Of a stretch of 60,694 nt of DNA, positions 2,671 through 58,882 are shown in pieces. The stretch covers positions 1-60,694 of IMG/VR virus record IMGVR_UViG_3300040801_003252. One strand, given 5' to 3'. Numbering within the stretch: the stretch's first letter is position 1; the number at the start of each line of letters is the position of its first letter. A program made the position numbers and the translations under genes. Below the pieces are notes generated by a model. The model was not told the origin of the DNA. It saw nothing but the letters and a program-made list of their open reading frames with translations, and did not search any database. This DNA is from a virus.

Positions 2671-2673
2671 GTA

Positions 2674-2964: not shown

Positions 2965-3005
2965 AATCTTTTTTTGTGTTTTTAATAATATTATTTATTT
3001 GATTG

Positions 3006-3036: not shown

Positions 3037-3074
3037 GGTTTTTTCTAACAATCTGTAAGATATTTTTCGTTTTT

Positions 3075-3500
3075 TTAAACTATCTCTAAGATGTTCTTCT
3101 CTTTATCTATCGATTTATTATAAATTGTATAGATTTCAATCAATGCATTAATTGTATTCCTATTCTTCTGTTTATCGATTTCAAAAATATTTTTCCAGAA
3201 ATTCTCGAAATATTTTAATGTAATCTCTTCATTGTCATTGACTCTATAGAATTGATGATAGTAGTACATGAAAAAATATTCTTTTAACTCCTTGTTTTTC
3301 GAGAAATCAATTTCTTCTTCTTTGAATTCAGCGCAGACTTTATTATAGCACCATGAATAATGATTATAGATGTCCTCATCAGCACTGAGAGTTTGTTTGT
3401 CAAGATAATAATGATATATGTAATACAATAGATTCAGGGCAAAATCTTTATAGATTTCAACTCTCTCCCTGACGATACTATATTTTTTTGTCGTTGACAT
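3075..3500 (-). CDS. Hypothetical protein
   Basis: 141 residues, rich in Tyr, Phe, Lys and Glu and probably all-helical (FALNLLYYIYHYYLDKQ). No signal peptide or known motif. It begins 4 bases after the amidase stop and so is co-transcribed with the endolysin. Function unknown. Confidence 0.65.
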   Translation of the reverse strand: MSTTKKYSIVRERVEIYKDFALNLLYYIYHYYLDKQTLSADEDIYNHYSWCYNKVCAEFKEEEIDFSKNKELKEYFFMYYYHQFYRVNDNEEITLKYFENFWKNIFEIDKQKNRNTINALIEIYTIYNKSIDKEKNILEIV

Positions 3501-3504
3501 TTAC

Positions 3505-4251: not shown

Positions 4252-4267
4252 AATGTAGCACATTTCC

Positions 4268-4276
4268 TATAAATAC
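4268..4276 (-). promoter_or_regulatory. Putative late promoter box GTATTTATA
   Basis: Minus-strand GTATTTATA, 16 bases upstream of the chosen endolysin ATG, just after a terminator hairpin. Confidence 0.75.
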
Positions 4277-4285
4277 TCGTTACAA

Positions 4286-4317
4286 TAAAAAGGTGCTGAT
4301 ATAAACCAGCACCCCTT
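4286..4317 (-). terminator. Intrinsic terminator
   Basis: Arms GGTGCTG (4292-4298) and CAGCACC (4307-4313), with flanking A/T pairs and a minus-strand T run. It ends the operon whose last gene is 4342-4713. Confidence 0.8.
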
Positions 4318-4341
4318 TAAACACAATGAAAATTATTACAA

Positions 4342-4713
4342 TTATGGATAGAATTTGCGAACCAGTCTATTGTATTCAGCAATGTCGATATCAAGTTCTT
4401 TACTGATTTTCTTGATTCTTTTGTTGTTGAGAAGAACCGCACTTAGTAGATACAGAACCAGTCCTGCTAATAAAATAGAATATGTTATTGTGACGATTGC
4501 GATAAATGCTGGAGCAGCATTAAACACTGTTCCAAAGAAACCTAATAAGAATAACCCACCCAAGAAAAACATCACGTTGTTGCGAAGCGACATATTTTCT
4601 TTTTCGGTTGATTTGGAAAAATATTTAAAAGCGAATTTAATCCAGCCATTTGGCAAATATTTACCATATACTTTATCGAACTGTCTTTTTGTTATCTTTT
4701 TCTGTTCTGCCAT
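4342..4713 (-). CDS. Membrane protein with two transmembrane helices, holin candidate
   Basis: 123 residues. A basic N-terminal half (KRQFDKVYGKYLPNGWIKFAFKYF) is followed by two hydrophobic helices at about 45-68 and 72-95, and a charged tail. It sits between the large Lys/Glu-rich gene, with which it shares a TAATG stop/start overlap, and the endolysin. Position and topology make it a holin candidate; no family match is visible. Confidence 0.6.
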   Translation of the reverse strand: MAEQKKITKRQFDKVYGKYLPNGWIKFAFKYFSKSTEKENMSLRNNVMFFLGGLFLLGFFGTVFNAAPAFIAIVTITYSILLAGLVLYLLSAVLLNNKRIKKISKELDIDIAEYNRLVRKFYP

Positions 4714-15500: not shown

Positions 15501-15892
15501 TCACCGTGATGCCAAACCGCCCACATCACATTATCATCAACATAGAAACCTGTTTTATTGTAATATTCCACATTATCATTACGCAGAGTATCTACAATGG
15601 CTTTAATGCTATCGACTCTTTTAAGATTCTTTTTACGGCAATCATGATTACCTCTTGTAATACGTACTGGAGCGATTTCAGCCAGTTGACTCAAAAGACT
15701 ATGTGCCAGTATAAGTTGTTCGCCTTGAAGGTCGAGATAATCATGTACGAGGTCACCAGCAATAGCGATTCTATCGGGTTTCTTTTTTTTTAGGTCGGCA
15801 ATTAATTTATTAAATACTTCTTGATATTCAGTGTTTCTCGTAGGCGTTTTTCTGATATGGATATCAGCGAGATGGGCAATCGTTTTTATCAT
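12551..15892 (-). CDS. Single-chain Mre11-Rad50 (SbcD-SbcC; T4 gp47-gp46) nuclease/ATPase
   Basis: 1113 residues. Residues 1-330 are a calcineurin-like nuclease: LADIH (9-11), GDLVHD (46-51), GNHD (81-84), WHHG (127-130), GDIHK (194-198). Residues 390 onward are a Rad50-type ATPase: Walker A GENTAGKT (415-422), long coiled coils, zinc hook CSQCG (765-769), signature SASGKERTF (from 1023) and Walker B FLLDE (about 1052-1056). In T4, cells and archaea these are two polypeptides that process DNA ends for recombination. Here one chain carries both, in the order nuclease-ATPase. It has a near-consensus host-type promoter, which indicates early expression. Confidence 0.93.
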   Translation of the reverse strand: MIKTIAHLADIHIRKTPTRNTEYQEVFNKLIADLKKKKPDRIAIAGDLVHDYLDLQGEQLILAHSLLSQLAEIAPVRITRGNHDCRKKNLKRVDSIKAIVDTLRNDNVEYYNKTGFYVDDNVMWAVWHHGEKNNNPWKTKEGKKILAYNEQADYVTIDLFHDPINGCRSTTDFEMKSNSYYKVKDFKGDLSFFGDIHKLQYLDDDKTKAYCSSLIAQDITEGDDAFHGYLLWNIEDLKATEVQIGNNYSYHNVRLTPYTDFDELDFEIENPTKHMTVRFVWGTLPQTRTKENERKVIDYLKGYLFKEKDNIKILHKNEFVEDDIIDVNEDITLENIGDEAVQQEIFREYLEKTGTGSEVIEDILALDEEILKEIEIPEDQNTEWNIIKFGGNNFMSYGSLDVDWRKMDGLFQITGENTAGKTTIMKIISYILFNKTLETENRVKHGDKRFVNNRNGAKFCDAYLVLESNGEYYGLKRRTDIKTNKSGEITGAPTALNYYILNSPDDEMTDDNDIEKLDEDRRQKTQKQLEAIIGSYDNFMRIVMTTSDTLNRILSNDMAVFIDSLLYDSGLDIFDKKLEGLKSYQKRVNEKPRVNCNVEVTTEQNKTMNDEIRVLQDEIKNIETLKLPDVQNRIEKGREYIETLTKKLYKIDEEIYNLDVDAARIEISEHKKEIVEIKSRKLILKQSIDTLQETYDEGRLNELITKRDEHKQTVYEKRVQIKEEERSKSDFEHRIEILNGKIFTLKKEGAKLKEEIEELKNSKICSQCGQVIDKQEHKDHIAKSVKDKETEMFGIAKEIKEHQHDIDTDWKPVIKKCDENIERINAEIVKLDLEMEDVLTEIGTLTNEKNDVERRNVLQTEFNQIPTLIKNEELNIEILEQKIGRHENSLKQIEENKRIEKGIDAAKKKVYELGIEESDFKEDVYLRKTSIGEKQKKIKENEILISDFKEQEHRDMVLNLYKKCVHRDGIPRQMLSNYIIPKINVTLDRILSVAAFRVWLDADDLRPKLAYNDRPESIIDCISASGKERTFSSIVLKFGLNQINVKAKPTMFLLDEVMNKLDENAVEEFKEILQLIKSNMKKVLVIEHTHEINPDYLINVTLDENGISSMSLE

Positions 15893-26227: not shown

Positions 26228-29200
26228 TTAAGGTCCGTCAAGGATTATTCCACCACCGTTTCCAATACAGGAATTTGTGGTATTATATGCACACAATGTT
26301 CTTGCACCACCCAACGCCACATTAATACCTGAAGCATTCACAATACTAACTAATTCAACTTTGGTATTGTTACAATAATTAATATTACAATTAGCGAGAT
26401 TACTAAGAGCACGCACACAGAAACTATATACTGATGGGTCATATGTGGTTGTTGCATCAATTCTTATTGTCGTTATATCAGCATCACTAACATTATATGG
26501 TGCACTCAATGCTGGTGCATTTGTAAGTGTTTCGGCACATGTAAGTGTATTTCTCTTAACACATGATATAGCACTAATTGGCTTCGGTAGGGCAACAGAT
26601 GTCGCAGAACGACTGGTTGCACCAATATTAATACAGAATGAACCCGTTGTAATTGGCTTGCTTGTAGTTAATTGAGCTTCGAAAGAACTTGTACCACCCG
26701 GTTCTATCGGTGGTGAACTAACCAAACTAAGATTGACGATGATAGGTCCAGCAGTTTGTTGAAAACGAATATCACCATATCCTATTGAAGCGGTTGTGGT
26801 TCCGTTTCTCGCAAACGCTCTGTAATAAACCTGAGTATCTTGCGGTAATCCAGTTGCGTTTTTATCCCATACGCTACCCTCGCCCGGGTATCCCGTTGTA
26901 CTTGAATCTTTAAATATGCCTGATGGCAGTGTTGAAACCGTACTGAATTTCATGTTTGAAGTAGTTGCTAAACTTGGACTTGTTGTCCATAAAATACCGT
27001 ATTCTTTCATATCACCATCTCCCGAAGGAACTCCGTTATCTAAGACCTCGTTATTTTCTACAACGAAACTGTTTTCAGTTACAGAATCAGCATCTCCAGT
27101 ATCGACTTCAGGTGGTGATGCTGGTATTGCTTGGGTCGAAATGGTTTTAATTGCACCGTAATACGCCACACCACCAACCACAATATATGCTCTGTATTGA
27201 TATGATAGATTAGGACTGAGACCAGAAATTGTACGTGTCCAGTTATTGGTACTGAGCGGTCCCGTACTTGGTGTCGATGGTGACGTTGACCAAGAGCCTG
27301 AAGTACCTTGTCTATATTGTACCGCATAATATTGTACATCTGCATATCGAACAACATTAACACCACCAGTATCTATAATTTGTGTGGTATTGGTACTCGT
27401 TGCGGTTTTCGTATCTACACTTGGTGGTGGGGGTGGTGGGGGTGGGGTTGTTACCGTTAATGTGTTACCAGTGAAACCAGTTCCAACTGCTTCAACAAAC
27501 GCCCTATAATTATAAGTAGTATCATCATCTAAACCAGTAAGTGTGAGACTGAAACTGTTTTGAATGAGAGGTTCGTCCAATGACAATTTAACCCATTCAT
27601 TCGGAAGTTCTTCTTCATCATAATCAATGCCTTCGGTTAAATTTAGTAACCCCAATGGTACAGAACCTCCGTATGGATATGGGTTAATATTCTTATACTC
27701 GATACCGTATTCCGTGACTAAATCATAATTAAGGATGTTACGACCACCAGTGGTTAGACTACCCAATACACCCGGTATTGTTTCAACAAACATTTCTGGT
27801 GGCTGCGGTGGTTGTGGTGGAGCAACAACCTGCTGAAATATCTGAAACTTACTACCCGCATCACCGAGATATTGTACCACGGGATTTCCCCTTAAATCAT
27901 AATTAAGATTTTCAGTGTTGGCTACATTGACACCTCTTTTATACCAATGTTTTTGTTTTGTAAATAATGTGTTTCTAACCAGTAACCCACCACGTCTTCT
28001 GATTATTGTTGCAGGTAGCAACTGGTCAACAAATCTCTGGAAAAATGCGTTATATTTGCTTAAAAATGAATAGAGATTCTGAAACGTATATCCGTTTGAC
28101 TGCAATGGGTCGTCATCGGGAAGCAATGCTCTTCTTAAATATTTTTCATAAATCGCCAGTACTGCGGGATACCAACCGCCTTTGAAATCAGTAACTGTTT
28201 TACGATTTCTGGCGTTAATCATTTTCCTCTGAACCAGTTCCAGAAATTCCAAGAACGACAATTCGCTGATATCACCGAGTCCAAATACGTCATTAATAAC
28301 AGGGTCGAATGCACCTTGTCCACCTACGAGATAATATGCACTAATTACACTACCATATCGTATACCTTGTGGTAAGAAGATTTCATATGGACTCATTACA
28401 TTCACACTATAATCCAAATATGGTTCCAATGCAATACCATCTATTAGAAATTTAACTTCACTGGCATTATTAACTTTATAATTGAGTTTATATACGTATT
28501 TATTTGCACTGTTGTTAAAATATATCTTACTGCTGTTAAAACTATCTACCCTGAATACCTCACTTCTCAAATTAATATCATTACTCCCCTGTACTTCCAT
28601 GTATGAAATCTGAACATCAGGATTAGCATTTAAAAATGTTATAACATCGGGATTCTGAATGATGAGATAATTAGTCCCACCAGTTGAATTCGCTGGGTCA
28701 ACGATGTAGTCCGCACTAAATTGAGACGTACCTTTAGTTAACGCAATGCCATTAATTGTAAGTTGTACGTCCCCACGTGGGAAACTTGGTAATGGTACAT
28801 ATGTACCACTTAATTCGGCTTTAACACGAGTAACAATATACGTAATAGTAATAGCACTTGTCGCAGCATTACTAATTGTGGTTCCTGAATCAATAAGAGT
28901 GACCTGAATGACATCAGAATCCCTGACACCTGTACTTAATTGTGGTATTGTAAATGTATTTCCACTGACAGTATAATCGGCTTCTGCGGTTTCTGTGTTT
29001 CCACTCGTATAACCACTTGTATTACCAGTACTCGGTGCATTTAACAATATGCCGTTATATCTAACTTCGATATCACCGAGTTTATTGTTCACACTTGTCG
29101 GTAAAGAAAATGTGTTTCCAGTACGAGGGATATTACTGATATTCACATAGGAATACGGGAGAGTGTAACCACTGCTGTTTGCTGCGAAGTCGGTTTGAAT

Positions 29201-31012
29201 GTAGTTGTAAACATCGTACTCAATACCTCTGGAAGTATCTAAGGCAATATCGATTTCCTTGGTGTTGATTACCAATTTACTATCTTCTTGATAATATTGT
29301 GACGTACTGTAGTGCTCACGAGTGGTAGCACCTGTTTGTATCCACGATTTTTTGTTATCGGGAGTCTGTTTCAAAACAAAACCAGCTTGACGGAAAACAT
29401 CGAGATAAGCCTGACCACTATCGGTATCACCGCTTATCTGGAAAAAGAAATCATTGGTTTCAAGTGGTGCTCTGGGATATCCACTATTATCATATGGTAA
29501 ATCATTACTTGGAAAATCATTAGCTGTTAACGTAACGGTATTCGGATTGATTTTACCATCAACGGTATAAACGTATTCCGTTATATTGATAAAAGGTTCG
29601 GGAATCCCGATAAGCAAGAATATAGATTTTATTGCCTGACGAGTACCTTTTGATTTCCAGAAATAGCTGGTATTCATTAATATGCGTCTCCATAATTCAA
29701 TATCTACTTCAGCAGGTAATTCGTTGTTATTAAGGTCTCTTTCCGTGTCGTCAACAGTTAAGAAACTCTCAACCAATTCATTCTCATTTAAAAGGTTAAA
29801 ATAATCCCACCCAAAGGTTCTTGCCATGTTTTGAATGAGTTGGTCAGGTATATTGTTTTTCTTATCGTATGTCACCTTATTAATGTAAACCAGTGAATCA
29901 ATGAATTCTTTCATCTGGTCAAATTCTCTACCATATAGTCTCAGAAGTTTTGTAGTTTTTTTCTCATCGGTAAAATCATAGTTTTTCAGCGAAGCTGGTG
30001 TTAAAAATCTTGCGATGAGGTCGGTTTTAATCTGGTCGTATTTCGAACCAATAGTCAGGACAATCGTAAGAAAGTTTTGATAACTTGGAGTATCAATATC
30101 GATATTATATTGGTCACCAGTTACCCAAACCACTTCTTTATCGTAATACAATATTTTTCCGTCTTCGAGAAGCGTAGGTTCTTTTAGCTTAAATACGTAG
30201 CCATCACTACCTCTTCTTTTCGAAACGAGGTTACGTTCATATGGGTCAAGAAGTGCTCTGAATTCCTCAAAAACCTCATTATTTGGACGTATATGAAAGT
30301 CCTGTTGAGCAGTAGTTCCTGTTCCGAGAGATTCAAATGGATTTCCTTCGACTTGAAGTCTGATGTAATTTCTTTTTAGCGGGTCTGAATGCTTATCAGT
30401 GTTTCCCGTGTATCCAATTACCTTAAACAATGTATTGGGTTCAAGATTAGACCATACGGTGTAATCCTCATAAGATATATTGAGATTCTTTAGTTCAACT
30501 CCGTCAGGAATTTCCTGATTCCCGTTATTGGTTATCAGACCAAATTTATTTACAACGGCATTAATTGGGACATAAAAAGTTGAGACGTTTTCAATCTGAT
30601 TGTATGATAGACCAGTAAAAGTAGTGTTCCCACCAATATCTTTTTGTGAATTAGCGAATAACGAACCCGGGTACGCTGTAATTACATTCTGTATCGATAC
30701 TCTGAGAAACTCATATGCTGAACCAAATTTGACAAAAGTATTTAAATCGGTTTTATCGAGATTAAGAACTGCGTTATTACTATACAAATTCATTATTTCG
30801 GATTGCCTGTCTTCGATTCCCAGAGTATCTAAACTAACAGGAGTAACAAAAGAACTCAGAGTATTACTGTAATCAATAGTGGTTTTATCATCGAAATTAG
30901 TTGTGACGAAAAACCTGCCAAAAGAAAAAATGGTATTTGATGGCGTATCATTGAAATACGAACCATTTAGATTGCCGTTGAGCTTGGAGTTGATTACCTT
31001 TACTTTTGCCAC
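26228..31012 (-). CDS. Giant gpI-like tail/baseplate protein with fibronectin-type repeats
   Basis: 1594 residues, starting at a GTG 14 bases after a promoter box. About residues 330-500 resemble tail proteins of the gpI type: FLTPASLKNYDF, LWRRILMNTSYFWKSKGTRQ, then AIKSIFLLIGIPEPFI. The middle has long beta-rich stretches. From about 1120 come fibronectin-III-like repeats (LTGLDDDTTYNYRAFVEA; ISGLSPNLSYQYRAYIVV), one preceded by an 8-Pro linker. The C-terminal 150 residues are Cys-rich. It probably links the baseplate to a host-contacting, sugar-binding tip; that is inference from the domain types. Confidence 0.75.
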   Translation of the reverse strand: MAKVKVINSKLNGNLNGSYFNDTPSNTIFSFGRFFVTTNFDDKTTIDYSNTLSSFVTPVSLDTLGIEDRQSEIMNLYSNNAVLNLDKTDLNTFVKFGSAYEFLRVSIQNVITAYPGSLFANSQKDIGGNTTFTGLSYNQIENVSTFYVPINAVVNKFGLITNNGNQEIPDGVELKNLNISYEDYTVWSNLEPNTLFKVIGYTGNTDKHSDPLKRNYIRLQVEGNPFESLGTGTTAQQDFHIRPNNEVFEEFRALLDPYERNLVSKRRGSDGYVFKLKEPTLLEDGKILYYDKEVVWVTGDQYNIDIDTPSYQNFLTIVLTIGSKYDQIKTDLIARFLTPASLKNYDFTDEKKTTKLLRLYGREFDQMKEFIDSLVYINKVTYDKKNNIPDQLIQNMARTFGWDYFNLLNENELVESFLTVDDTERDLNNNELPAEVDIELWRRILMNTSYFWKSKGTRQAIKSIFLLIGIPEPFINITEYVYTVDGKINPNTVTLTANDFPSNDLPYDNSGYPRAPLETNDFFFQISGDTDSGQAYLDVFRQAGFVLKQTPDNKKSWIQTGATTREHYSTSQYYQEDSKLVINTKEIDIALDTSRGIEYDVYNYIQTDFAANSSGYTLPYSYVNISNIPRTGNTFSLPTSVNNKLGDIEVRYNGILLNAPSTGNTSGYTSGNTETAEADYTVSGNTFTIPQLSTGVRDSDVIQVTLIDSGTTISNAATSAITITYIVTRVKAELSGTYVPLPSFPRGDVQLTINGIALTKGTSQFSADYIVDPANSTGGTNYLIIQNPDVITFLNANPDVQISYMEVQGSNDINLRSEVFRVDSFNSSKIYFNNSANKYVYKLNYKVNNASEVKFLIDGIALEPYLDYSVNVMSPYEIFLPQGIRYGSVISAYYLVGGQGAFDPVINDVFGLGDISELSFLEFLELVQRKMINARNRKTVTDFKGGWYPAVLAIYEKYLRRALLPDDDPLQSNGYTFQNLYSFLSKYNAFFQRFVDQLLPATIIRRRGGLLVRNTLFTKQKHWYKRGVNVANTENLNYDLRGNPVVQYLGDAGSKFQIFQQVVAPPQPPQPPEMFVETIPGVLGSLTTGGRNILNYDLVTEYGIEYKNINPYPYGGSVPLGLLNLTEGIDYDEEELPNEWVKLSLDEPLIQNSFSLTLTGLDDDTTYNYRAFVEAVGTGFTGNTLTVTTPPPPPPPPSVDTKTATSTNTTQIIDTGGVNVVRYADVQYYAVQYRQGTSGSWSTSPSTPSTGPLSTNNWTRTISGLSPNLSYQYRAYIVVGGVAYYGAIKTISTQAIPASPPEVDTGDADSVTENSFVVENNEVLDNGVPSGDGDMKEYGILWTTSPSLATTSNMKFSTVSTLPSGIFKDSSTTGYPGEGSVWDKNATGLPQDTQVYYRAFARNGTTTASIGYGDIRFQQTAGPIIVNLSLVSSPPIEPGGTSSFEAQLTTSKPITTGSFCINIGATSRSATSVALPKPISAISCVKRNTLTCAETLTNAPALSAPYNVSDADITTIRIDATTTYDPSVYSFCVRALSNLANCNINYCNNTKVELVSIVNASGINVALGGARTLCAYNTTNSCIGNGGGIILDGP

Positions 31013-43140: not shown

Positions 43141-46100
43141 TTATATTTCAGTTATTTTTCCAGTTAGTTTCAATGGGAAGCCCAAAGGTTTCCAATTAGT
43201 TAAATTATTTGACATAAAGGGTTTCCCACCATCCTTTCTATTAACAGCTACTGTAATATGTGGTTTTTCATTTAAAGAATTATAACCTTCAACGCCAACA
43301 GCCAATACTTTGTTATCCATTGCGTAATCCAAGACATTTAAAACAATTTGTTTCTGGTCTTCCATGTCCTGTTTTTCCTCTGAACCGTCTTCAAGACCAC
43401 CCATTTTAATCGTCATGTGATGCGCAATGGTTTCCCAGTCTTCGGGTATCATTGGGGCAAATACTTTAAGTAAATCTGTTCTGGATTTATCGTCAAGTAC
43501 CACTCCACTGTAACTAACTCTTTTCACGTTGTCTTCATTTAAAAGTTCTCTATCAATTAATTCCCAATAGAGAAGTTTATTTAATTTATCGTCATTAACA
43601 AGTTCTTCGAATTTAGCACCTAAAAACTGTTTTACTGTGTTCCTGCTTGGGTCGGTATGATAGCCACCGTTCCACTTATCGTATTCCTTGACGAAATACT
43701 TGATGTCTTGTTCAGTGCCATTTACTTGCCAAGTGTCCTGTGGTTCACTGTAATAATCATAACCTTCCTTCACGTCATCTTTTCTCTCACCTAACAAAGC
43801 TAATAAATCTTCACGAGTATTCCTAACTTTATCGGCATAAATATTAATTAATAACGCTCTCTGCATTTTCCCGATTTCCTGACCTTTTAATCCTGCATCC
43901 ATAATATCATTGCCACTAATCGCCAGTTCTTTCACGGTTTTCGGGTATTTGTTTTGTAACAGTTCTTGCGCTGCAATCCGTATTTTTTCTGGTAATATAT
44001 CACTTTGTAACGATTTACCTGTTTTATCCTTGGTGACCATATTATGTGCAACAGACCTATTAACAGCGGGAATATCGCTATCTTCCGCATTCATACCAAT
44101 AATGAGTCCTTCTAATTCGTTCACGATGTCGGTATCACCACGCATATTATTCATGTAGAATTTCAATGGTGACATGGCATTATGAGAAAGCAGATAAACG
44201 AATTCAGCAAGAGTATTGACGTTATTCCATAACGGACTCACGAGAAGCGGTGCATCAACTCCCATATGTTTAAGCAACCCAGTATCTTTTAATATCATTG
44301 CTGCTTTACTGGCATCACCTTGTTCGGCAATTTTTTGGAACTCGGTTTGAACCCTGTCATTAGCAATACTATTGACTTTATCAGCACTTTCTCTGATTAA
44401 ACCATAGGTTTCAGGGTCTATTTCAAATCCCAATACAGTTGCAAATCTCACGGCACGCAACATACGCAAGGCATCGTCTTCAAATGACTTGGGGTGGGTT
44501 ATCTTGATTTTACCTGCCTTAAGGTCTTGCTGACCATTAAAAGGGTCGATAAGATTGCCTTCCATGTCCTTGGCAATAGCATTAACGGTAAAATCTCTGC
44601 GTTCCAAATCCTTTTCAATTGGTAATCTGTGGTCGGCTTTTATTTCGAAATCCTTATGACCCTCACCTGTTGAGATTTCAGTACGTGGTAACGCCACATC
44701 GATTTCCTCATTACTGCCTTCAGGTACGAATTTCATTACGGCAAAACTTTTACCCACGGCATTTACTGTGCCATATTTGTTGAGAATATGTGCCAATTGG
44801 TCTTCGGGGATACCACGGATGACAATATCTAAATCCTTAGAAGGTCTGCCAAGCATTTGGTCACGAAGCGTACCGCCTACCACATATATCTGACCACCCT
44901 CGGCTTCAATAGTTTCTTTAAATGGAAGGTCATTAACCCCCATACCTTCATCGACTTGTGGAACCAAACTACTATAGTATTCCTCAAGCTCATATTTATC
45001 ATCCCAGTCGCTTCTCTGGATAATTATTTCTTTATTATTTCTCACCATTTCGTATCCCTGTGGTAAATTTTTTCCAATATAGGACAAATATAATGAAAAT
45101 CTTCGGAAATCACCACTCATATTTTTAATTGGTTCGATTACCAACATATCTGGTTTGGTATTAGCAAAAAAACCATTCATTATTTTCAATATAGTTGCCA
45201 TCACACGATACAATCTACCTTTATTCGTGACCTTGGTATAATCCTCGCCTTTGACACCAAAAATAGCATCCCATTCGTTATCATCTAATGAACCTCGATT
45301 AAATTCGATTTCATACCTGTCATTATCTTCGGTTTTAAAACCATAAACCTTATTATTATCAGTACTTTTAATTATCTTGACCTCATAGGGTTCAACGTTT
45401 CCTTCACCTACTTCATCTAATCGTGTGAATTCCAGATTATTTATATCACCCTGATTACAGGCATCACTTGTGCCATCAGCTTTACCACCGAGTTGACAAT
45501 TTTTCTTAACAGTAACGGCTTTAGAACCCGTTACCCATGATTTCTTTCGGTCTTCACTTATTTCATATTCGTCTTCAGTAGCATCACCCTTCACGTGATT
45601 ATATTCAAGGTCTTCATACATCTGAGACGATACATTGGCATCAAGATTATTATTAATTGTTGGTGGTATGTTGCTGTTATTATATGGTGGGAAACCGTCT
45701 GCACCAATTTCATCATCTGTACTGTATATCGAAGTACCGTCTTCATTAATATCGACATCAAATTTTTCCGCATCGGGTCTGGAAAAACCGTCACCAAAAC
45801 CAACATCGAAATAACCGATTAATCCACTTGGCTTGAAACCCAGATTATCGGGATTGAAAAAGTCCAGACTCTGACTTCCATATTTCTCGACTTCATCCCA
45901 GATTCTTAATAAACTATAAAAAAATTCTCCGTCTTTGGGGTTTTTCTTGAAATAGTTTTCAACGTCTTCACGTTTAACGTTATTGGGTAGCTCTTCTTCA
46001 TCATGTATGGCTTCAGCAGCATCTTTAAACCTAACACCAAATATTTTATCAAACACATAATCTAATCGATTATACATTCTATTAAAATACTCGTCATCCG

Positions 46101-48111
46101 TTCTTAGTTTCTCCAATATAATTCCATATGTTGGATGTTGTAGTTCTTTGTTGGGTTGGATTTCAAAAACCCTATATGGTTGAGCTATATATTTCAAAGG
46201 CTTCCCAATCATTCTCAGATTATCATGCGCCTCACTTTGGTCTCTGGTTATTTTCAATATTTTATCATCACCAATATCATATGCAACCCCGAATTCACCA
46301 GCACCGATGAATTGAGGACTCAGACCAAGTTTTGTTCCCACACTACTGGCAATTTTATCAGCAACTTCTCTATTATATTTTTCTTCAAGTTGTTGTGATT
46401 CAGGTATTTGAATCACTTCGGTGTCAGGTATATTTGGTTCATCACGACTGACATAACCACCGATATCGAAAAATTTTAATTTACCGTTTTTGTATCCAAG
46501 ATTATTTATTGTGATGTAGTCCGTTGACTTTATGTTATAATCAATTAGTTCCTGACGAATTTTCAGGATATCCATGAGATATTCATACGCTGCCTGTCTA
46601 TCGGCATCACTTACACCAGCGTTGGGGTTAGCTGTTAGAATTTGTTTGGCGAATTCCTGCCATTCATCGAAATCAAAACGATTTGGTTTTCTTATGTCAA
46701 CCAAAATATCTTCGTAGTGCATGTCACTTGGATTGATTTCAGAGATGATGTTCTGTAATTCCCTGATTCTATCGATGGGTTTATCAGCAATATTTTCTTG
46801 TAGAATAACGAAAAACGATTTGTCGTTTTCTGTGTCATGAATTTTATATAAATTATATATTTCACTGAGATGTTCGGGATTCGCTCTCATTAATTTAGAC
46901 GCTGCATCGGCTTCACTGACATCGGAAGTAATCTTAAGAACTACGTTATCATCGATTTCATAAGCAAATCCAAATCCACCACTACCTAAATATTTTGGTG
47001 TTGTTAAATTCAGTTTATCGGCAACATCTCTTACAAGTTCATCAGCATAGCTTCTATCGTTTAACGTATTTTGTTCTACTTTGGGTGCGTCTTCCCTAAT
47101 CATGTATTTTTCTGAAACAAGTGGTTCTCTGTTATAAAATCCTCTTCTAATCAGATAACCTTGAAGTTCAAGTAGATTTCCGTAGAATTTCTTTTTATCT
47201 TCTACGGTTTCCAATACTGTTTTTAAATTGTTTATACATTCATGAAAACGGTCGGTGAGTTCGGGTAAACCATCAATATTTTTATCGGGATATTTGCTCC
47301 TGTTATTCACAAAATTCACGAATTGTTGCCCCTCTTCCATATTAATCACACCATCACCATCGCCTACACTATATGGCATTTGTGCCCACATTCCGTGTTT
47401 AATTTCTTGAGCACTTCCGATATCACTAAGTATGTCGTCATTACCATCAGCAAACTGAAATAACTCGTACATCTGGTATCTCTGCTTGTTTTTACCGCTA
47501 TAATGCGTATCATAAACCTCGTCATTAAGACCGTAATCAGTTAAAACAATTGCGGGTTGACCATCACGAATAACCTCACCGTAAGAACTTGGTCTACCCA
47601 TATCGCCAGCAGATTGTCCATAGTTACCAATAAAATCAAGTAACGAACTACTGAAATCGTTTTCATCCCAAAAAAATTCCTTTTCTTCTTGAGTGAAATC
47701 GTTTCTCTGATAACTTTGTCTGCTTTTATTGCTTTGTTCGAAGTCAATTAGAAATTCTGCCATTCTGGTAAAATCGGGAATGTCTTCAAGTTCTTCTATT
47801 CGTTTTTTCGTTACTTTTTTTGCTTTTTCAGCAACTATCCAACTATTGTCTTCAGCAGCATCATAAACTTCTGTGATTAAATCTTTTATATAGTAATCAT
47901 TCATCATTCCCGACTCTACTTCGTTTTGAGCAATACCCTTACGATTTAAAGCGAGTTTTAATACTTTCTCACCATCAATATCATATACCGCACGACCACT
48001 ACCACTACCTATTCTGGTAAGATATTGGTCTGCGAGTCTTTTTTTTCCAGCAAAAGACCTGATGTCATTTAATTGGGGTAGGAATTTTTCTTTGAATTCC
48101 GCATATGTCAT
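43141..48111 (-). CDS. 1656-residue protein: three kinase-like domains, CCA-adding nucleotidyltransferase, 2H phosphoesterase
   Basis: Kinase-like units have a Gly loop, a VAIK-type Lys and a DFG-like site: GSGSGRAVY (35-43), K52, TDYG (191-194); GSGGFGFAY (376-384), K393, FDIG (548-551); GAGEFGVAY (603-611), K620, FDVG (768-771). A linker with one short Cys cluster follows (872-885). Residues about 1070-1445 are a class II CCA-adding/poly(A) polymerase: VVGGTLRDQMLGRPSKDLDI, RRDFTVNA (1171-1178), DPFNG (1189-1193), RMLRAVRFA (1216-1224) and a C-terminal body (AISGNDIMDAGLKGQEIGKM). Residues about 1530-1656 have two HxT motifs (HMT 1565-1567, HIT 1618-1620), as in 2H phosphoesterases. The catalytic HRD of the kinases is unclear. 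Combined roles in RNA end processing are inference. Confidence 0.85.
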   Translation of the reverse strand: MTYAEFKEKFLPQLNDIRSFAGKKRLADQYLTRIGSGSGRAVYDIDGEKVLKLALNRKGIAQNEVESGMMNDYYIKDLITEVYDAAEDNSWIVAEKAKKVTKKRIEELEDIPDFTRMAEFLIDFEQSNKSRQSYQRNDFTQEEKEFFWDENDFSSSLLDFIGNYGQSAGDMGRPSSYGEVIRDGQPAIVLTDYGLNDEVYDTHYSGKNKQRYQMYELFQFADGNDDILSDIGSAQEIKHGMWAQMPYSVGDGDGVINMEEGQQFVNFVNNRSKYPDKNIDGLPELTDRFHECINNLKTVLETVEDKKKFYGNLLELQGYLIRRGFYNREPLVSEKYMIREDAPKVEQNTLNDRSYADELVRDVADKLNLTTPKYLGSGGFGFAYEIDDNVVLKITSDVSEADAASKLMRANPEHLSEIYNLYKIHDTENDKSFFVILQENIADKPIDRIRELQNIISEINPSDMHYEDILVDIRKPNRFDFDEWQEFAKQILTANPNAGVSDADRQAAYEYLMDILKIRQELIDYNIKSTDYITINNLGYKNGKLKFFDIGGYVSRDEPNIPDTEVIQIPESQQLEEKYNREVADKIASSVGTKLGLSPQFIGAGEFGVAYDIGDDKILKITRDQSEAHDNLRMIGKPLKYIAQPYRVFEIQPNKELQHPTYGIILEKLRTDDEYFNRMYNRLDYVFDKIFGVRFKDAAEAIHDEEELPNNVKREDVENYFKKNPKDGEFFYSLLRIWDEVEKYGSQSLDFFNPDNLGFKPSGLIGYFDVGFGDGFSRPDAEKFDVDINEDGTSIYSTDDEIGADGFPPYNNSNIPPTINNNLDANVSSQMYEDLEYNHVKGDATEDEYEISEDRKKSWVTGSKAVTVKKNCQLGGKADGTSDACNQGDINNLEFTRLDEVGEGNVEPYEVKIIKSTDNNKVYGFKTEDNDRYEIEFNRGSLDDNEWDAIFGVKGEDYTKVTNKGRLYRVMATILKIMNGFFANTKPDMLVIEPIKNMSGDFRRFSLYLSYIGKNLPQGYEMVRNNKEIIIQRSDWDDKYELEEYYSSLVPQVDEGMGVNDLPFKETIEAEGGQIYVVGGTLRDQMLGRPSKDLDIVIRGIPEDQLAHILNKYGTVNAVGKSFAVMKFVPEGSNEEIDVALPRTEISTGEGHKDFEIKADHRLPIEKDLERRDFTVNAIAKDMEGNLIDPFNGQQDLKAGKIKITHPKSFEDDALRMLRAVRFATVLGFEIDPETYGLIRESADKVNSIANDRVQTEFQKIAEQGDASKAAMILKDTGLLKHMGVDAPLLVSPLWNNVNTLAEFVYLLSHNAMSPLKFYMNNMRGDTDIVNELEGLIIGMNAEDSDIPAVNRSVAHNMVTKDKTGKSLQSDILPEKIRIAAQELLQNKYPKTVKELAISGNDIMDAGLKGQEIGKMQRALLINIYADKVRNTREDLLALLGERKDDVKEGYDYYSEPQDTWQVNGTEQDIKYFVKEYDKWNGGYHTDPSRNTVKQFLGAKFEELVNDDKLNKLLYWELIDRELLNEDNVKRVSYSGVVLDDKSRTDLLKVFAPMIPEDWETIAHHMTIKMGGLEDGSEEKQDMEDQKQIVLNVLDYAMDNKVLAVGVEGYNSLNEKPHITVAVNRKDGGKPFMSNNLTNWKPLGFPLKLTGKITEI

Positions 48112-51881: not shown

Positions 51882-54800
51882 TTATTCGGCATCCAAATAT
51901 TCACTCGCTTCTTCAGCAATTTGCTTTTCCTGAGTCGTTACAAAGGTTTCAAGTGCACCAAACGCTTCCGTGTCATTATAGACCATTTCCAACGTAATGG
52001 TATTATCGAGATTAAACACTTTTTTAAAGTCCTCAAAATATTTCTCACGTTTTTTTATTTGCACCTTATGGAATTCTTCAGCATCTGTTTCTGGTGATAA
52101 TTCCGTGGACTTAAGTTCTTCACCTTTCTTTTCTTTCTCCTGTCTTCTTCTATCTAATTCGAGTTCGGTTTCGCTTTTAGGTATATCAACATCAGACCTA
52201 ACAATTTGAATATAGACCCCGTTAAACGCACCAACATGATATTTGGTATTGTCTTTAATCAGAACCAAATCACCATCCTGATAATCACTATTAATTGACT
52301 TTATTTCTGACTTACCCTGTGCTCTCATTTTTTCGTTCAGGAATTCAAGTGCGCCATCATAGATTTCATAATGTATTTTATAATCGTCACGCATTTTAAA
52401 TCCATCCCAAACCAATCTTGGGTCGTAACCCGTTTTATTCCAGAAATCGATTTCCTTGTCTTCGAGATGCATGCCTTCATCAAATGTATCGAAATCAAAA
52501 TTCTTGAGTCGTAGTTGTTCACTGGTGAACATTTCTTTATGTAGTTCACCTTTTTTCTCACCCTTCTTTATAATTGTTGCGGGAATCTTTTTTGCCACTT
52601 CTGGTTCAAATGCCGAAAGCAATCCACCTATTTTTTTCTGAGTATAACAAATTCTTTCATTAAAAGCAGCTAAATACTTTTCGTAATTATAACTACCTTT
52701 GATATCGGGATTCTGTTCCAAGTCTTCAGTACTGATGAGCGTAGATGCCATTCTCATTTCACCAGTATCCTTATCTTTGATTTCCTTACTGTCCCCATGT
52801 GACTTTACGTAACCCGTGTTGACATAATACACGGTGCTATCTAATTCTGGTTCAGGTGGCATGTAGTCAATAATTAATTTCATCTTATCATCGGGACTTA
52901 ATTCGCTACCATCACCTTCATAGCCGATATCGAGTTTATGTTTTTCAAAGAGTTCCACGGCTTTTTTCTGACGGTCTTGTATCAGAAGTTCCATATGTGC
53001 TTGCATTGCTTTTTTCCTGCCGTTTTTATCAGTACCTCTTTTTCCGTAGGCTTTAAGTGTTTGTTTTACCTTGGATTTACTTGCTATTTTCTTCAAGGGA
53101 ATCTGCATGTATCTGATGTCCTCAACGTAATTATAATAATAGTCAACAAATTCCTTACCTTTACCATGAAGAATTAATTCCAACCCCTTATCAATAAATT
53201 CCTCTATGTATTCAGGAAGTGCTTTTGATTTAATACTGTTTCCCGTTAACTTTATCTTTTCTTTTGTTTCACCTGTTTTCTTGTTTTTAATTAAAGAAAG
53301 TGTGGCGTAATTAATTCTTGAAAGATTGAAACACGATACGCTTTCACCATCATCATCAACCGCCATATATGGTTTGGGCATTTCTTCAGCATTAAATTTT
53401 TCGATAAGTGCCTGAATACCCGTCTTACCACCATATTCCCACATTTCCTCGTTTAATCCCTCAGTTGTTCCCTCAGTTACTCCCTCATCAGTAACTCTTA
53501 TGTTTGTGACATCGGGTATTTTGAAATTCACACCATCAGTCACACATAACAGGGGCACGCAACCAAATTGAGCGAACCAGTGTATTGCGTGTCTGAGTTC
53601 AATACGACCTATTGAAGTAATTCGTCCCGCACAGACATTATCCGACCAATTAAAACTGATGTCGGAACCCAATGCACCGAAAAGCGAGTTATTCAAAATC
53701 TTAATAGGTAATTGTTTTACTTTGAACATCGAAATGTCTTGTGATGTCAACGTATCTGATTTGAATTTCTCATAGGCTTCGAAATCAATTTGTTTAAGCA
53801 AGCCAATTTCTTCGGCATCAAGTTCGAGTTCCGCACCCATTTTCTTATAAATATTACGAGTGGTTGTCATGTAAAGCAACATCTTCTTCATTACACCCGT
53901 GATATCGAACATCGGGAAAACATCGTGGGTCAACTGAATCATGGGATAAAGACTGGCGTAGTCAATTTTAATCAGTCTCTCAGTATAACCCTTTTTAAAG
54001 GTTCTGGCAAGTCCACCACCAAAGTTTTCATTGACATCGGGAATCGGAATAGCTAAGTCGTTTTCGTAGCTCCATGCCGTAAGTAAGAGATTCCAAACAC
54101 TTGCGGTTCCCATCGTACAGACTCTCTGATACGTAGTTGGAACTATTTTGGCAAGCATGAATGATGACTGATTATATAGTTCATCAACTTGTTCGGTTTC
54201 CCAGAGGTCATCGAGAAGATATTGATTCACGATTTTCTTGCCTCCAATGAACTTCGTCATTTTCTTACCAGCAGCGTTTTCACGAAACCATCCAACAAAC
54301 CCCTGACTGGCATCAAGATATTTTTTTCTCAGTCCCTGATACTCTTCGGAACTCAATTTGTCTTTATTCGCTTGTAATTTATAAAGGTTTCTACCGACTT
54401 CCTGATATTCTTCGGGAATCTGAAGATATTCGTTTTTCTCGTTAATAACATGTACTTTGTTGTCGTTATACATTTTACCGATATCATCACCTTTGATATA
54501 TGTTCGGTTCTGTCTTGCGAATTTCTCGAATTTCGCTATGTACTTAAGACTGGTTTTTTTCAAATCAGTGTTAACGGCAGCGGTTTTCTTGGCTGCGTGA
54601 AGCGTGTCAATAATTGAATAACCCCACATTTCGGTTGCCGTGTATTTGTCGCTGGTATTACCGTATTTAACACTGGTATTACCACGTCTTCTCAACGGCA
54701 CATTTTCTTTAAGTCCTTGAGGTAAATCATTGAGGTTCATTTTCAATATCTTAGCACGCCCCAATATGAAATCGAAGTCAAATTCCTCGGAGTTGTGACC

Positions 54801-55577
54801 CAAAATAACTGCTGGTTTAATGTAATCGATGAGATTAAAGATGTCCTGAATCAACTTGATTTCGGCTTCATCACAGTCTTTTTTCTCGGCATGCAATATG
54901 GTTTCGAAACCCCTATTGTCTCTCACACCTACACTTACAATTCTACCGATTTGATAACGAAGTGCTGTGGTCTCGATATCAAATGTCAGGCGATGAACTT
55001 CTTTATATTGTTCGTAACCCTTATATAATCTGGATTGCGTGCTTATAAAAAATTGTTCGGTAAGGCGGGGTGCATAAAATAAATGCCTGTTTTTATAAAT
55101 GATTTTATTGGTTCTGGGGTCTCTTACGAGTTGACCGTCTTCGTCATATAGTTTTTCAAAAGGGTCGATGCCACCATCTCTGAGAAAATTAGTGATATCA
55201 TCGCTGGATTTCGTGCTACTTAATTTATAACAATAACCATCAACAAGTCGTTTCTGATTACCTGTTTTGAGTTTGGTTATGGTTATCCCGTACTTAACTT
55301 TCTTACTTTCAATATATTCATCAGTCTTGCCAGCGTACAAAACGATTCCGTTTTTCTCCAAGTCTTTCACGTATTGAAACGGAGTATATCTTATCTTTTC
55401 GATTCTCGGTGGTTGATTGGGTTCATGAATAACGCATTCCGCAACATCTGTCTTTCTATCGGTTTCGACATTGACTATGTACTTGAATTCGTTATTATAG
55501 CCTTCGAGAAAACCCTTGATTTCACCTAAGACTTTGTGCTTGTCCATTTCAATAGTGTGTCCTGTTTTTTTACTCAT
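51882..55577 (-). CDS. Family-B DNA polymerase with 3'-5' exonuclease
   Basis: 1231 residues, longer than T4/RB69 polymerases (about 900). Exonuclease motifs: Exo I FDIETT (199-204), Exo II GHNSEEFDFDF (260-270), and Exo III probably around YSIIDTLHA (320-328). Polymerase motif A DYASLYP (539-545), motif B KILNNSLFGALG (626-637), motif C CVTDGVNF (678-685). Motif C is unusual: the usual DTDS reads VTDG, keeping only the second Asp. The extra 550 C-terminal residues include thumb-like helices (KIASKSKVKQTLKAYGKRGT) and charged low-complexity ends. It is the phage replicase; it overlaps the helicase gene by 8 bases and shares its early promoter. Confidence 0.95.
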   Translation of the reverse strand: MSKKTGHTIEMDKHKVLGEIKGFLEGYNNEFKYIVNVETDRKTDVAECVIHEPNQPPRIEKIRYTPFQYVKDLEKNGIVLYAGKTDEYIESKKVKYGITITKLKTGNQKRLVDGYCYKLSSTKSSDDITNFLRDGGIDPFEKLYDEDGQLVRDPRTNKIIYKNRHLFYAPRLTEQFFISTQSRLYKGYEQYKEVHRLTFDIETTALRYQIGRIVSVGVRDNRGFETILHAEKKDCDEAEIKLIQDIFNLIDYIKPAVILGHNSEEFDFDFILGRAKILKMNLNDLPQGLKENVPLRRRGNTSVKYGNTSDKYTATEMWGYSIIDTLHAAKKTAAVNTDLKKTSLKYIAKFEKFARQNRTYIKGDDIGKMYNDNKVHVINEKNEYLQIPEEYQEVGRNLYKLQANKDKLSSEEYQGLRKKYLDASQGFVGWFRENAAGKKMTKFIGGKKIVNQYLLDDLWETEQVDELYNQSSFMLAKIVPTTYQRVCTMGTASVWNLLLTAWSYENDLAIPIPDVNENFGGGLARTFKKGYTERLIKIDYASLYPMIQLTHDVFPMFDITGVMKKMLLYMTTTRNIYKKMGAELELDAEEIGLLKQIDFEAYEKFKSDTLTSQDISMFKVKQLPIKILNNSLFGALGSDISFNWSDNVCAGRITSIGRIELRHAIHWFAQFGCVPLLCVTDGVNFKIPDVTNIRVTDEGVTEGTTEGLNEEMWEYGGKTGIQALIEKFNAEEMPKPYMAVDDDGESVSCFNLSRINYATLSLIKNKKTGETKEKIKLTGNSIKSKALPEYIEEFIDKGLELILHGKGKEFVDYYYNYVEDIRYMQIPLKKIASKSKVKQTLKAYGKRGTDKNGRKKAMQAHMELLIQDRQKKAVELFEKHKLDIGYEGDGSELSPDDKMKLIIDYMPPEPELDSTVYYVNTGYVKSHGDSKEIKDKDTGEMRMASTLISTEDLEQNPDIKGSYNYEKYLAAFNERICYTQKKIGGLLSAFEPEVAKKIPATIIKKGEKKGELHKEMFTSEQLRLKNFDFDTFDEGMHLEDKEIDFWNKTGYDPRLVWDGFKMRDDYKIHYEIYDGALEFLNEKMRAQGKSEIKSINSDYQDGDLVLIKDNTKYHVGAFNGVYIQIVRSDVDIPKSETELELDRRRQEKEKKGEELKSTELSPETDAEEFHKVQIKKREKYFEDFKKVFNLDNTITLEMVYNDTEAFGALETFVTTQEKQIAEEASEYLDAE

Positions 55578-58428
55578 TATCCTCTATATTTTTTCTGTGT
55601 TTTTTCTTAATTCTATCAATAACCTCACTCAATACCGACTCACTGACATCTGATTCATAGTCTTCGTTATCAATTACCTTTACTATTTCCTTTCTCTTGC
55701 TTTCAATTGCCGAAAACACGTAGTCGTCAATGGTATCGGGAAACACCAATACGTAGATGTTAACTGCGTTTTTCTGACCTATGCGATGACAATTATGTAC
55801 AGTGGATAACCCAACAACAAATGAATGGTCGTCTTGAACTTCAATATCATAAACCCTTTCATCATTTCTTTTAGGGTGATATATTTTTATTTCCTCTATG
55901 GGGTATAACACATTTCCGTTTTGATTAGTAATTAGTTTATTTCTCGATATTTTATCGTTTAATGAATACTCAAACGACCAACATTTCGCAACCTCATTAT
56001 ATCTAATTGTCGGTGTATTTCCGAGAAGTGCCTCCAATAAAGTTAATTGATATGATAAATATTTTGATACTGTTGATGCTTGTTGAGTATTTTTTCTTTT
56101 ATAGCCATCAGCATCATAATACCCATTAAGAAATTCTCTTATTTGAATTTCAGTCAAATTAAATATGAAGTTAGGTATTTTTTTATTATGTGCACCCGAA
56201 CCAAACCAAGAAGAAAATGCTATAGTTAATTCTTGAGAATATATTGCGAATTCACATTTATTATCAATACATCTTTCATATAGCGAATTTGAATTAACAC
56301 CGAACGATTTTTTTATGTCTAAAACACATTTTTTCACGACATCGTATTCTTTTATGTGTCCACATAAACAAACATCATCTTTATTTGTCCACCCATCACC
56401 AACAAATCTTCCCATAGCATATAGTAATTCGTTTGAGAGTATAGGTTCTCTATTAATCCTAATTATTCTATCTTTTACTGATTTCCCTGCTACATATTCA
56501 TCTATTTTTAAATCATTCGTATAGTTATTTTTTAATGTTAACTTATTTAAAACAATATTGTGATTATTAATGTCAAGATTTTTTGCTTCACACCAATCAT
56601 ATCTTTTCCTAATTTTATTATACACATATATTCTATGGTCTTCTGTGCATCTCAATGGTTTATAATATCCCTTGTATTTGATATCATAAAATGCTTTTTT
56701 TCTTTCGATTTTACTTTTAATGTTTATTACTTTTTTCCAATTTCCTTTATATGTATAAACCAAATCACCAATTTTAATGTTCTCAATAGGTATATATCCT
56801 TCTCTCGTTAATACTAACTCACCCTTCAAAATACACCTATCAGCAGCTTGGTCATATTCTCCAACAGAATACGGCAAAGTTACAATAAATAATTTACTTG
56901 CAGCAGTCAATGTCAATCCATAGTTACTGGTTTGAATGCTACCCAAAAAAACGCTAATCTCATCCTCAATATCTTGAAAGCGTTTCACGAGTTCCGCACG
57001 CTCTTCAACATTCTGGTCTCCCGTATGTAATCCCGAAATATTACCCAAAATTTTATTTAATTCATAAAGAGAATTTTTAAAATAATCCATTACGATTACC
57101 TTTTCATTCGTTTCTAAAATATTATTAATTAACTCCGTAACATGTTTTACTTTTAATTGTGCCAAATACTGTCTCAACCGAATCATAATTGTCAGAGGGT
57201 TACCATTGGGGTGTTCCACGAATTCATTGGCGACACCCGCTTCGATTTCTTCATAAATCCGTTGTTCGTCATCAGTCATTTCCAAAATAATGCGTTGATA
57301 CGTTTTATCTGGAAGGTCTTTGAGTGCATCTGCCTTACGTTTTCTATGGGTATATGGTGCGATTTTATGATAGAGTTCTTCGAATTTTTGTTCTGCGGTA
57401 TTGGTGTGATATCCCCAACCCGCATCAGCGTCATAAGTCATACCACAATAATATTCCTGAAAATAAGTTTTTGTCGGAAATTCCATTGGTGAGATTTGAT
57501 TTAAAACGGTATAAAGTTCATAAGCACGATTAGGTGCGGGTGTTCCAGACATAAAAATCTTACTGACTTTATCGGCTTTAAATGCATTTTTCTTAAAAGT
57601 TCTGTCAAAATTCTTGTATATATTCGTTTTGGTGTTTTTAAGTTTTTGGCTTTCATCACAAATCACGGCATCGATTTTACCGATATCCAAGCCCTTCCAT
57701 TTTTTCTGGAATCTACCTGACTTCACTGCTGGGTTGAAATAGTCGTAATTAATGATAATGTATTTGGCATCTTCTATTCCACAATCGTTTTTCTTCCAAT
57801 TCACGATATGTGCGGTGCTATCGGTGAACTTCTTGACTTCACCGTAGAAATTAAACTTCAGGGAATTCGGGGTGATAACCACGACCTTATCGAAACCATT
57901 CATCTCGACATAAAGTATTGCTGACAGCGTCTTCCCCAACCCCATGTCGTGGCTAATCAGGGTGTTACGTGTGACATTCATGAACATCGCTGCCACGATT
58001 TGATGCGGATATAATTTTATGCCTTCTTTTAGTAAGGCATGAAGTCTGTCGCTGTATTTCTCGTAATCGTTTTCGAGTTCCGTCTTGAATCTGACCCAGT
58101 GTTCTTTCTTGACATTTAATTCGGCAATAAACTTACGTTTCTCGATTTCAGCGAGTTCCAGTTGTTTTATTTGCTCAATAAAAATCTTACGACTGTCTTC
58201 GTTTCCGAAATCAAAATGGATTTTAGTTGATTTTCTAAAACTTTTAATTAATGAGTACAGTGATTCAACTTCGATTTCCCAGCATATCATCCCAGCATTC
58301 CATTTACGGGTTTCATGTGGAAGACTTTTGATGCGCTGAATCAGTTGGTCATTAACGGGAAATTTAACATAATACCGTTTGGTTTTCCTGATTCTTTCAC
58401 AACTTACAACAAAAACTGACCTTTCCAT
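55570..58428 (-). CDS. HARP/SNF2-type helicase containing an intein
   Basis: 952 residues as translated. The N-terminus (about 18-65, YYVKFPVNDQLIQRIKSLP ... WNAGMICWEIE) resembles the HARP domain of SMARCAL1-type annealing helicases. The motor has HDMGLGKT (160-167), VICDESQKLKN (255-265), MSGTPAPN (293-300), and the C-terminal lobe SNYGLTLTAASKLFIVTLPY (501-520). Motif VI is split: QAADR (527-531) ends at the intein and CHRIGQ (880-885) resumes it. Residues 532-879 are the intein; without it the host protein is 604 residues. It would remodel forks or anneal strands, as UvsW does in T4. It leads the operon that includes DNA polymerase and has a host-type promoter. Confidence 0.93.
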   Translation of the reverse strand: MERSVFVVSCERIRKTKRYYVKFPVNDQLIQRIKSLPHETRKWNAGMICWEIEVESLYSLIKSFRKSTKIHFDFGNEDSRKIFIEQIKQLELAEIEKRKFIAELNVKKEHWVRFKTELENDYEKYSDRLHALLKEGIKLYPHQIVAAMFMNVTRNTLISHDMGLGKTLSAILYVEMNGFDKVVVITPNSLKFNFYGEVKKFTDSTAHIVNWKKNDCGIEDAKYIIINYDYFNPAVKSGRFQKKWKGLDIGKIDAVICDESQKLKNTKTNIYKNFDRTFKKNAFKADKVSKIFMSGTPAPNRAYELYTVLNQISPMEFPTKTYFQEYYCGMTYDADAGWGYHTNTAEQKFEELYHKIAPYTHRKRKADALKDLPDKTYQRIILEMTDDEQRIYEEIEAGVANEFVEHPNGNPLTIMIRLRQYLAQLKVKHVTELINNILETNEKVIVMDYFKNSLYELNKILGNISGLHTGDQNVEERAELVKRFQDIEDEISVFLGSIQTSNYGLTLTAASKLFIVTLPYSVGEYDQAADRCILKGELVLTREGYIPIENIKIGDLVYTYKGNWKKVINIKSKIERKKAFYDIKYKGYYKPLRCTEDHRIYVYNKIRKRYDWCEAKNLDINNHNIVLNKLTLKNNYTNDLKIDEYVAGKSVKDRIIRINREPILSNELLYAMGRFVGDGWTNKDDVCLCGHIKEYDVVKKCVLDIKKSFGVNSNSLYERCIDNKCEFAIYSQELTIAFSSWFGSGAHNKKIPNFIFNLTEIQIREFLNGYYDADGYKRKNTQQASTVSKYLSYQLTLLEALLGNTPTIRYNEVAKCWSFEYSLNDKISRNKLITNQNGNVLYPIEEIKIYHPKRNDERVYDIEVQDDHSFVVGLSTVHNCHRIGQKNAVNIYVLVFPDTIDDYVFSAIESKRKEIVKVIDNEDYESDVSESVLSEVIDRIKKKHRKNIEDNE
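55792..56835 (-). mobile_element. Intein with LAGLIDADG homing endonuclease in helicase motif VI
   Basis: 348 residues, Cys 532 to Asn 879, with Cys 880 as the +1 residue. Block A is CILKGELVLTREGYIPIEN; block B is LRCTEDHRIYVY (TxxH type); two LAGLIDADG helices are LLYAMGRFVGDGW and IREFLNGYYDADGY; the C-terminal blocks are RVYDIEVQDDHSFVVGLS and VHN/C. All residues needed for class 1 splicing are present. Joining the exteins restores QAADR-CHRIGQ. Confidence 0.93.
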
Positions 58429-58445
58429 AATTAGTTAATATCATG

Positions 58446-58476
58446 CAAAGATAATGAAAAAAAAATAAACTACCAA
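58446..58476 (-). promoter_or_regulatory. Bacteroidota-type early promoter (TTG-N20-TATCTTTG)
   Basis: On the minus strand TTG is at 58474-58476, then 20 bases, then TATCTTTG at 58446-58453, 17 bases before the helicase ATG at 58428. It is a full match to the consensus, driving the helicase-polymerase operon. Confidence 0.8.
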
Positions 58477-58489
58477 TAGTTTTAAGACA

Positions 58490-58882
58490 TTAACTTGGTT
58501 TAGGAACCACGTAGAAAACTGGAGTAACGGTGATGTCCTGTGTATTCGGGTGGTCTACAGAAAAGCATGTCTGGGTTCCAACAGCTATGTAATACCATGT
58601 GGTTCTACTGGTGATATCCTGATAATTTGGGTGATTGGATGGTATGTAAGTCGTTATACCTGTAGGAACGGCATAATACCTGAAGTTATCGGATATATCG
58701 TTTTTATTTGGATTGTCTTGAGGAAAATAAGTGGTTGTGCCAGTAGGTATGACATACCATCTGGTTCTACTGGTTATATCTGAACTATTGGGGTTGTTTT
58801 CGGGAAAACAGGTTTGCGTGCCAACTGGAATGCAGTAGTAGGCAAAACTATCCGTAATATCTTGTTTGTTGACATCACCCAT
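58490..58882 (-). CDS. Repeat protein with five 27-residue units
   Basis: 130 residues built from repeats of the form NxxDITxxxxxYxxPxGTxTxFPxxNP (four full, one partial, period 27). Examples are DITSRTRWYVIPTGTTTYFP and DISDNFRYYAVPTGITTYIP. The alternating Tyr/Thr pattern suggests a beta structure, as in tail-fibre or cell-wall-binding repeats. No Cys network. It starts 11 bases after the virion gene upstream. Function unknown. Confidence 0.7.
   Translation of the reverse strand: MGDVNKQDITDSFAYYCIPVGTQTCFPENNPNSSDITSRTRWYVIPTGTTTYFPQDNPNKNDISDNFRYYAVPTGITTYIPSNHPNYQDITSRTTWYYIAVGTQTCFSVDHPNTQDITVTPVFYVVPKPS
58496..58873 (-). repeat. Tandem 81-base coding repeat
   Basis: Five copies at the protein level (27 residues each), diverged at DNA level. 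The TCTACTGG(T)GATATC-like segment recurs at about 58602 and 58764, two units apart. Confidence 0.7.

Follow-up and report, generated by a model that had tools for sequence, protein, structure and literature searches.

The window analysed here, the whole 60,694-base stretch of an IMG/VR virus record, carries in its SNF2 helicase gene an insert that is very probably a class-1, endonuclease-bearing mobile intein, which would splice itself out of the protein and spread by homing with co-conversion of its flanks. After translation, an acyl shift at Cys1, transfer to the +1 Cys and cyclisation of the last Asn would join R531 to C880 and restore motif VI of the helicase. In a mixed infection, the LAGLIDADG domain of the intein would cut the intein-less helicase genes of related phages, and repair from the carrier would carry across both the intein and a short adjoining stretch that contains the +1 Cys codon required for splicing.

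The host protein was identified as an SNF2 helicase by the presence of both its N-terminal and Helicase_C domains, with Pfam matches to SNF2-rel_dom (E 3.7e-24) and to Helicase_C (ending at residue 532) that both lie outside the insert. Computed from the full-length ORF, the joined extein has 604 residues, which together with the 348 residues of the intein matches the lengths given in the original prediction. The label 'HARP', which had also been attached to this protein, was not supported, because residues 1-140 gave no match to the Pfam HARP domain even at E up to 10; an AlphaFold model of the helicase of the closest relative (L005, pLDDT 57.9) was too poor for a fold search on this question. 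The same kind of polymerase as in the window was found by eye at the same place beside the helicase of one further carrier, L073. The longest contig with a helicase relative measures 372 kb, and the window may therefore be a piece of a large phage.

Table 1. Coordinates in the window of the helicase gene, its insert and neighbouring features.
Feature	Position	Strand	Evidence or remark
SNF2 helicase precursor ORF, 952 aa	55570..58428	(-)	ORF and Pfam; PHROG phrog_62 DNA helicase
N-extein, residues 1-531, ending ...QAADR	56836..58428	(-)	
Motif I GLGKT, where relatives have an intein of another family (GLGK/T)	57928..57942	(-)	
Motif II DESQ, site of a third intein in L025 (DE/C)	57646..57657	(-)	
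Intein, 348 aa, CILKG...TVHN, ORF residues 532-879	55792..56835	(-)	Pfam; empty relatives
Hint splicing domain, N-terminal part (intein residues 1-100; C1, TEDH 64-67)	56536..56835	(-)	
LAGLIDADG endonuclease domain (about intein residues 131-300)	55936..56445	(-)	
Splicing domain, C-terminal part (intein residues 306-348, ending HN)	55792..55920	(-)	
+1 Cys codon TGT	55789..55791	(-)	Leu in both nearest relatives (L005, L025)
C-extein, 73 aa and stop, starting CHRIGQ	55570..55791	(-)	
Family B DNA polymerase, 8-base overlap with helicase end	51882..55577	(-)	

R531 and C880 enclose the insert; going by what is generally known of SNF2 proteins, this position should be flanked by arginines of motif VI, and the precursor would be inactive before splicing. 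Pfam matches to Intein_splicing, Hint_2 and LAGLIDADG_3 all fall inside the insert, whose G+C content is 27.9% against 36.9% in the extein. Cys1, the TxxH motif, the terminal His-Asn and the +1 Cys were all present as originally noted, and C1, T64, H67, H347 and N348 are invariant in the eight motif VI carriers of this clade. Two LAGLIDADG motifs were recognised (GRFVGDG and GYYDADG), the Asp of the first (147) being invariant in all eight carriers and that of the second (243) kept in seven, with Asn in L077. In that carrier (positions 4001-5053 of its contig) the second motif reads YSTNG instead of YDADG, and its nuclease may be dead. A class 3 assignment failed on the presence of C1 and on a block F region, YDIEVQDDHSFVV, that has no Cys; judged from its sequence, the insert is a class-1-type intein with a complete signature and is predicted to splice.

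An AlphaFold model of the intein, built with eight sequences (pLDDT 73.6), has the Hint fold, and its best fold match was the nuclease-bearing TliVMA intein (E 2e-16), followed by PhoVMA, PI-SceI and PI-PkoII; I-DmoI was matched by the nuclease part, and the intein profile likewise matched PI-PkoII. With TliVMA, the PI-SceI VMA intein and PI-PkoII the insert shares the Hint and LAGLIDADG fold, C1, TxxH, HN and a +1 nucleophile, but it differs from them in host protein and site, with about 13-21% identity in the fold alignments.

Relatives were collected by a protein scan of viral contigs (26), an intein profile (9 loci) and an extein profile (80 kept of 111 relatives), and when pooled with the window made up 106 loci, or 71 distinct helicases; one row from a different intein host (L080) was removed, and duplicates were judged by the last 380 residues. 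The motif VI intein was found in eight of the 71 (the window, L002, L003, L004, L073, L074, L075 and L077), a count that is not a prevalence because carriers were fetched deliberately with the intein profile: L073, L074 and L077 came from that profile alone, and L075 also through the extein scan, as L137/L138. The closest relative, L005, is 83% identical and has the same gene without the insert. Together with the many other relatives that lack the 348 residues and the seven other distinct carriers at the identical position, this excludes a chance pattern. The claim that motif VI of a phage SNF2 protein houses a full intein with a LAGLIDADG nuclease is borne out by anatomy, Pfam matches, and empty and filled relatives.

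The +1 residue is Cys in all eight carriers, and in the 63 intein-less helicases it is Leu (47), Ile (12), Val (2) or Cys (2). Independent filled/empty pairs numbered five (at most five to six), nearly always all in the expected direction, which makes the tie between the +1 Cys and the intein suggestive and not significant (sign test, p 0.0625 at best). The two empty sites with Cys, in L011 (5001-6806) and L116 (757-2553), have the context ADR/C (the slash marking the insertion point here and below), and may be scars left by lost inteins.

From 30 bases upstream to 32 bases downstream of the insertion, the only positions at which the window departs from both L005 and L025 are −11, −9, −8, −1 and +2, with no such difference at −30 to −12 or +3 to +32. 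L002 shares four of these five bases and L003/L004 also share four, so that every one is found in at least one of these carriers. Such a patch is as expected if the flanks had been co-converted, a process described for homing of T4 introns (PMC2988022); alternatively, it could reflect point mutations selected for the splicing context. Farther upstream, from −147 to −73, lies a second cluster of differences; L003/L004 or L002 share about half of them, and older recombination is therefore likely as well.

The histories of intein and extein were compared with an extein tree of 70 rows, from which L073 was left out (208 aa only). In this tree the window is sister to the empty L005 (99/87) and next to L025 (100/100), the motif VI intein requires at least 6 changes and the motif I intein 9, and carriers as a single extein clade were rejected (p 2.3e-6). 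The intein tree, in contrast, groups the window with L002 and L073 (100/100). AU tests rejected both an intein grouping of the window with L003 and L004 (p 4e-5) and an extein grouping of the window with L002 (p 0.001; tree of 22 of the 70 rows). Between the window and L002, identity is 84.2% in the intein versus 68.8% in the extein, and between the window and L003 it is 60.8% versus 77.3%. Because Nei-Gojobori dS was saturated for several exteins, fourfold sites with a saturation estimate were used, after trimming a partial motif II intein from the L074 extein; differences between the window and L002 were 0.372 in the intein (n=78) and 0.651 in the extein (n=109), and the window and L005 differ by 0.454 in the extein. 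From these comparisons we infer that the intein has spread horizontally among alleles and that the copy in the window is a homing element.

An ancestral intein, inherited vertically with many losses and with the Leu alleles arising after loss, is accordingly improbable as an account of the whole family. It would agree with the carrier status of all of the early-branching L074, L075 and L077, with an intein order that partly follows the exteins, and with the empty, Cys-bearing sites of L011 and L116, which are what scars would look like; yet the intein of the window goes with L002/L073 and not, as the extein tree would have it, with L003/L004, and its fourfold distance to L002 is much smaller than that of the extein. 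Purely vertical inheritance was rejected for the window, both of the congruent histories tested having failed the AU tests. Long, mixed branches make up the deep part of the extein tree, and some carriers may be vertical descendants.

A reading in which splicing serves as a switch, keeping the helicase inactive until a signal such as redox state, temperature or infection stage, is distinctly improbable. Insertion between two motif VI arginines, with a precursor that is probably inactive, would suit a switch, and conditional splicing of other helicase inteins is described in PMC6195587 and PMC7360933. However, no regulatory feature was found, most relatives lack the intein, and the intein follows mobility rather than the helicase lineage. 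The earlier suggestion that helicase activity may be gated hence gains no support over parasitism, the data describing a mobile element whose empty alleles are common.

That the insertion is dead and does not splice, leaving the helicase a pseudogene in this phage, is highly improbable. The LAGLIDADG_3 match exceeds its curated Pfam cut-off, and those to Intein_splicing and Hint_2 fall slightly below theirs, which, with splicing being a prediction, leaves such a reading some room; against it, the frame is open, the catalytic residues are kept, and extein and intein are both under purifying selection, with dN/dS in the intein, over five pairs, of 0.07-0.20 for the splicing part and 0.13-0.18 for the nuclease part. 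An RNA intron or another in-frame insertion element is scarcely credible, for although phages carry introns, and PMC11855218 describes an insertion element in a phage methylase that hides an HNH nuclease, conservation here is at the protein level with an intein fold, and no Rfam match was found in 55400-58600. The insert is a real and probably active homing intein.

To follow the allele beyond this clade, the pattern HN/CHRIGQ was searched in one genome for each of 84,980 prokaryote species and yielded 15 loci. Four of these are real: two lie in actinobacterial MAGs (L029 and L039), one in a MAG that bears the label Thaumarchaeota (L034) and one in Millionella massiliensis (L040), the taxon labels of MAGs being possibly wrong. 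The last 200 residues of L040 are those of an IMG/VR record, L060. With a wider pattern in viral contigs, an intein C-terminus was joined to CHR(I/L)GQ in 27 of 30 loci, and nine diverse same-site proteins all had SNF2, Helicase_C and Intein_splicing matches. The 20 distinct motif VI inteins (8 from the clade of the window and 12 others), all starting with C1, make up one side of a branch (99/95) in a tree whose comparison set was small (inteins of motifs I and II and six others from phages), and the motif VI allele likely has a single origin. Four of the 12 others (L034, L046, L060/L040 and L071) also have a motif I intein. On the Thaumarchaeota-labelled contig, the SNF2 gene (2540-6610, minus strand) contains inteins of 428 aa at motif I and 357 aa at motif VI. 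Queries with five same-site proteins found no record with 80% coverage among 50,697 isolate phages, and one query found none among 72,556 plasmid records, searches that a strongly diverged case could escape. The nearest phage kin of the intein, at 24-28% identity, are mostly hosted by methyltransferases, ThyX and ribonucleotide reductase.

Inteins also occupy other sites of this helicase family. Complete motif I (GLGK/T) inteins were found in 8 of the 71 helicases and a partial one in L023, and a motif II (DE/C) intein was found in L025 and part of one in L074. Two of the motif I inteins, those of L022 and L025, begin with Ala and have Cys at the expected block F (as placed in the present analysis), as in class 3, defined in PMC5222942. 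The L025 gene (173-4192) holds two kinds of intein, a class 3 type at motif I and one of 392 aa at motif II, its motif VI being empty with Leu; in L074 (1-2664) a complete intein at motif VI is accompanied by part of a short one at motif II. It is conceivable, if rather doubtful, that inteins invade this family at motifs I, II and VI and that Leu or Ile at +1 of motif VI is a selected 'intein-proof' allele. Such a residue would block splicing, so that an invader would kill the gene unless co-conversion overwrote the codon, as the motif VI lineage would have done repeatedly.

Active sites such as the P-loop are well-known locations of inteins (PMC5874633). Class 3 P-loop phage inteins, which are present at GLGK/T in relatives of the window's helicase and whose family has matches in 773 of 50,697 phage records, including some genes annotated as SNF2, differ from the intein of the window in site and form a separate lineage in the intein tree. 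The Snf2 intein of Deinococcus radiodurans, reported to splice (PMC11219805), is likewise in an SNF2 protein but belongs to class 3 (PMC3196547), so that it is set apart from the present class 1 intein by its class. The mycobacteriophage HEL inteins (HepA-related helicase, subcluster C1), which PMC5050341 describes among inteins in active centres, also lie in a phage SNF2-like helicase; as the text of that source leaves the site unstated, the comparison is by host protein. For the crAss-like phages, described as dense in inteins, the host named in PMC7886860 is TerL and not SNF2. The haloarchaeal MCM-d intein has +1 Ser at filled and mostly Pro at empty sites, with co-conversion needed (PMC10643990), and offers a parallel both in the several intein sites of one helicase and in the filled/empty dichotomy at +1, but the present case has Cys versus Leu/Ile and concerns a phage SNF2 helicase. 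As for the expectation that the site is little described, searches of the open-licence PMC literature turned up no account of an intein in SNF2 motif VI, yet in raw data the site is not rare (27/30 viral and 4/15 genome-contig matches). Within this literature the insertion allele is new and its site seldom described, and its mechanism is ordinary.

Elsewhere in the window, all on the minus strand, are three further large genes. The 1656-aa product of 43141-48111 has, at about residues 1063-1288, a CCA-adding enzyme head, besides a phrog_4301 region (27-213) and weak matches to a kinase and a tRNA-ligase phosphodiesterase, and is possibly a fused tRNA-repair enzyme. The 1113-aa product of 12551-15892 has a calcineurin-like phosphoesterase fused to SMC/AAA domains, resembling SbcD fused to SbcC. 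The 1594-aa product of 26228-31012 has a weak purple-acid-phosphatase N-domain as its sole Pfam match and no PHROG match.

Taken at the family level, the SNF2 motif VI allele (DR/CHRIGQ) extends from an archaeal-labelled contig to large phages, and helicases of this kind are easily misread by annotators. What merits notice is the clean empty/filled pairs and the three-site pattern: close relatives with matched alleles are natural pairs for seeing how an intein brings the splicing residue it needs into a gene that lacks one, and the relatives of the window's helicase illustrate how such inteins jump between large phages.
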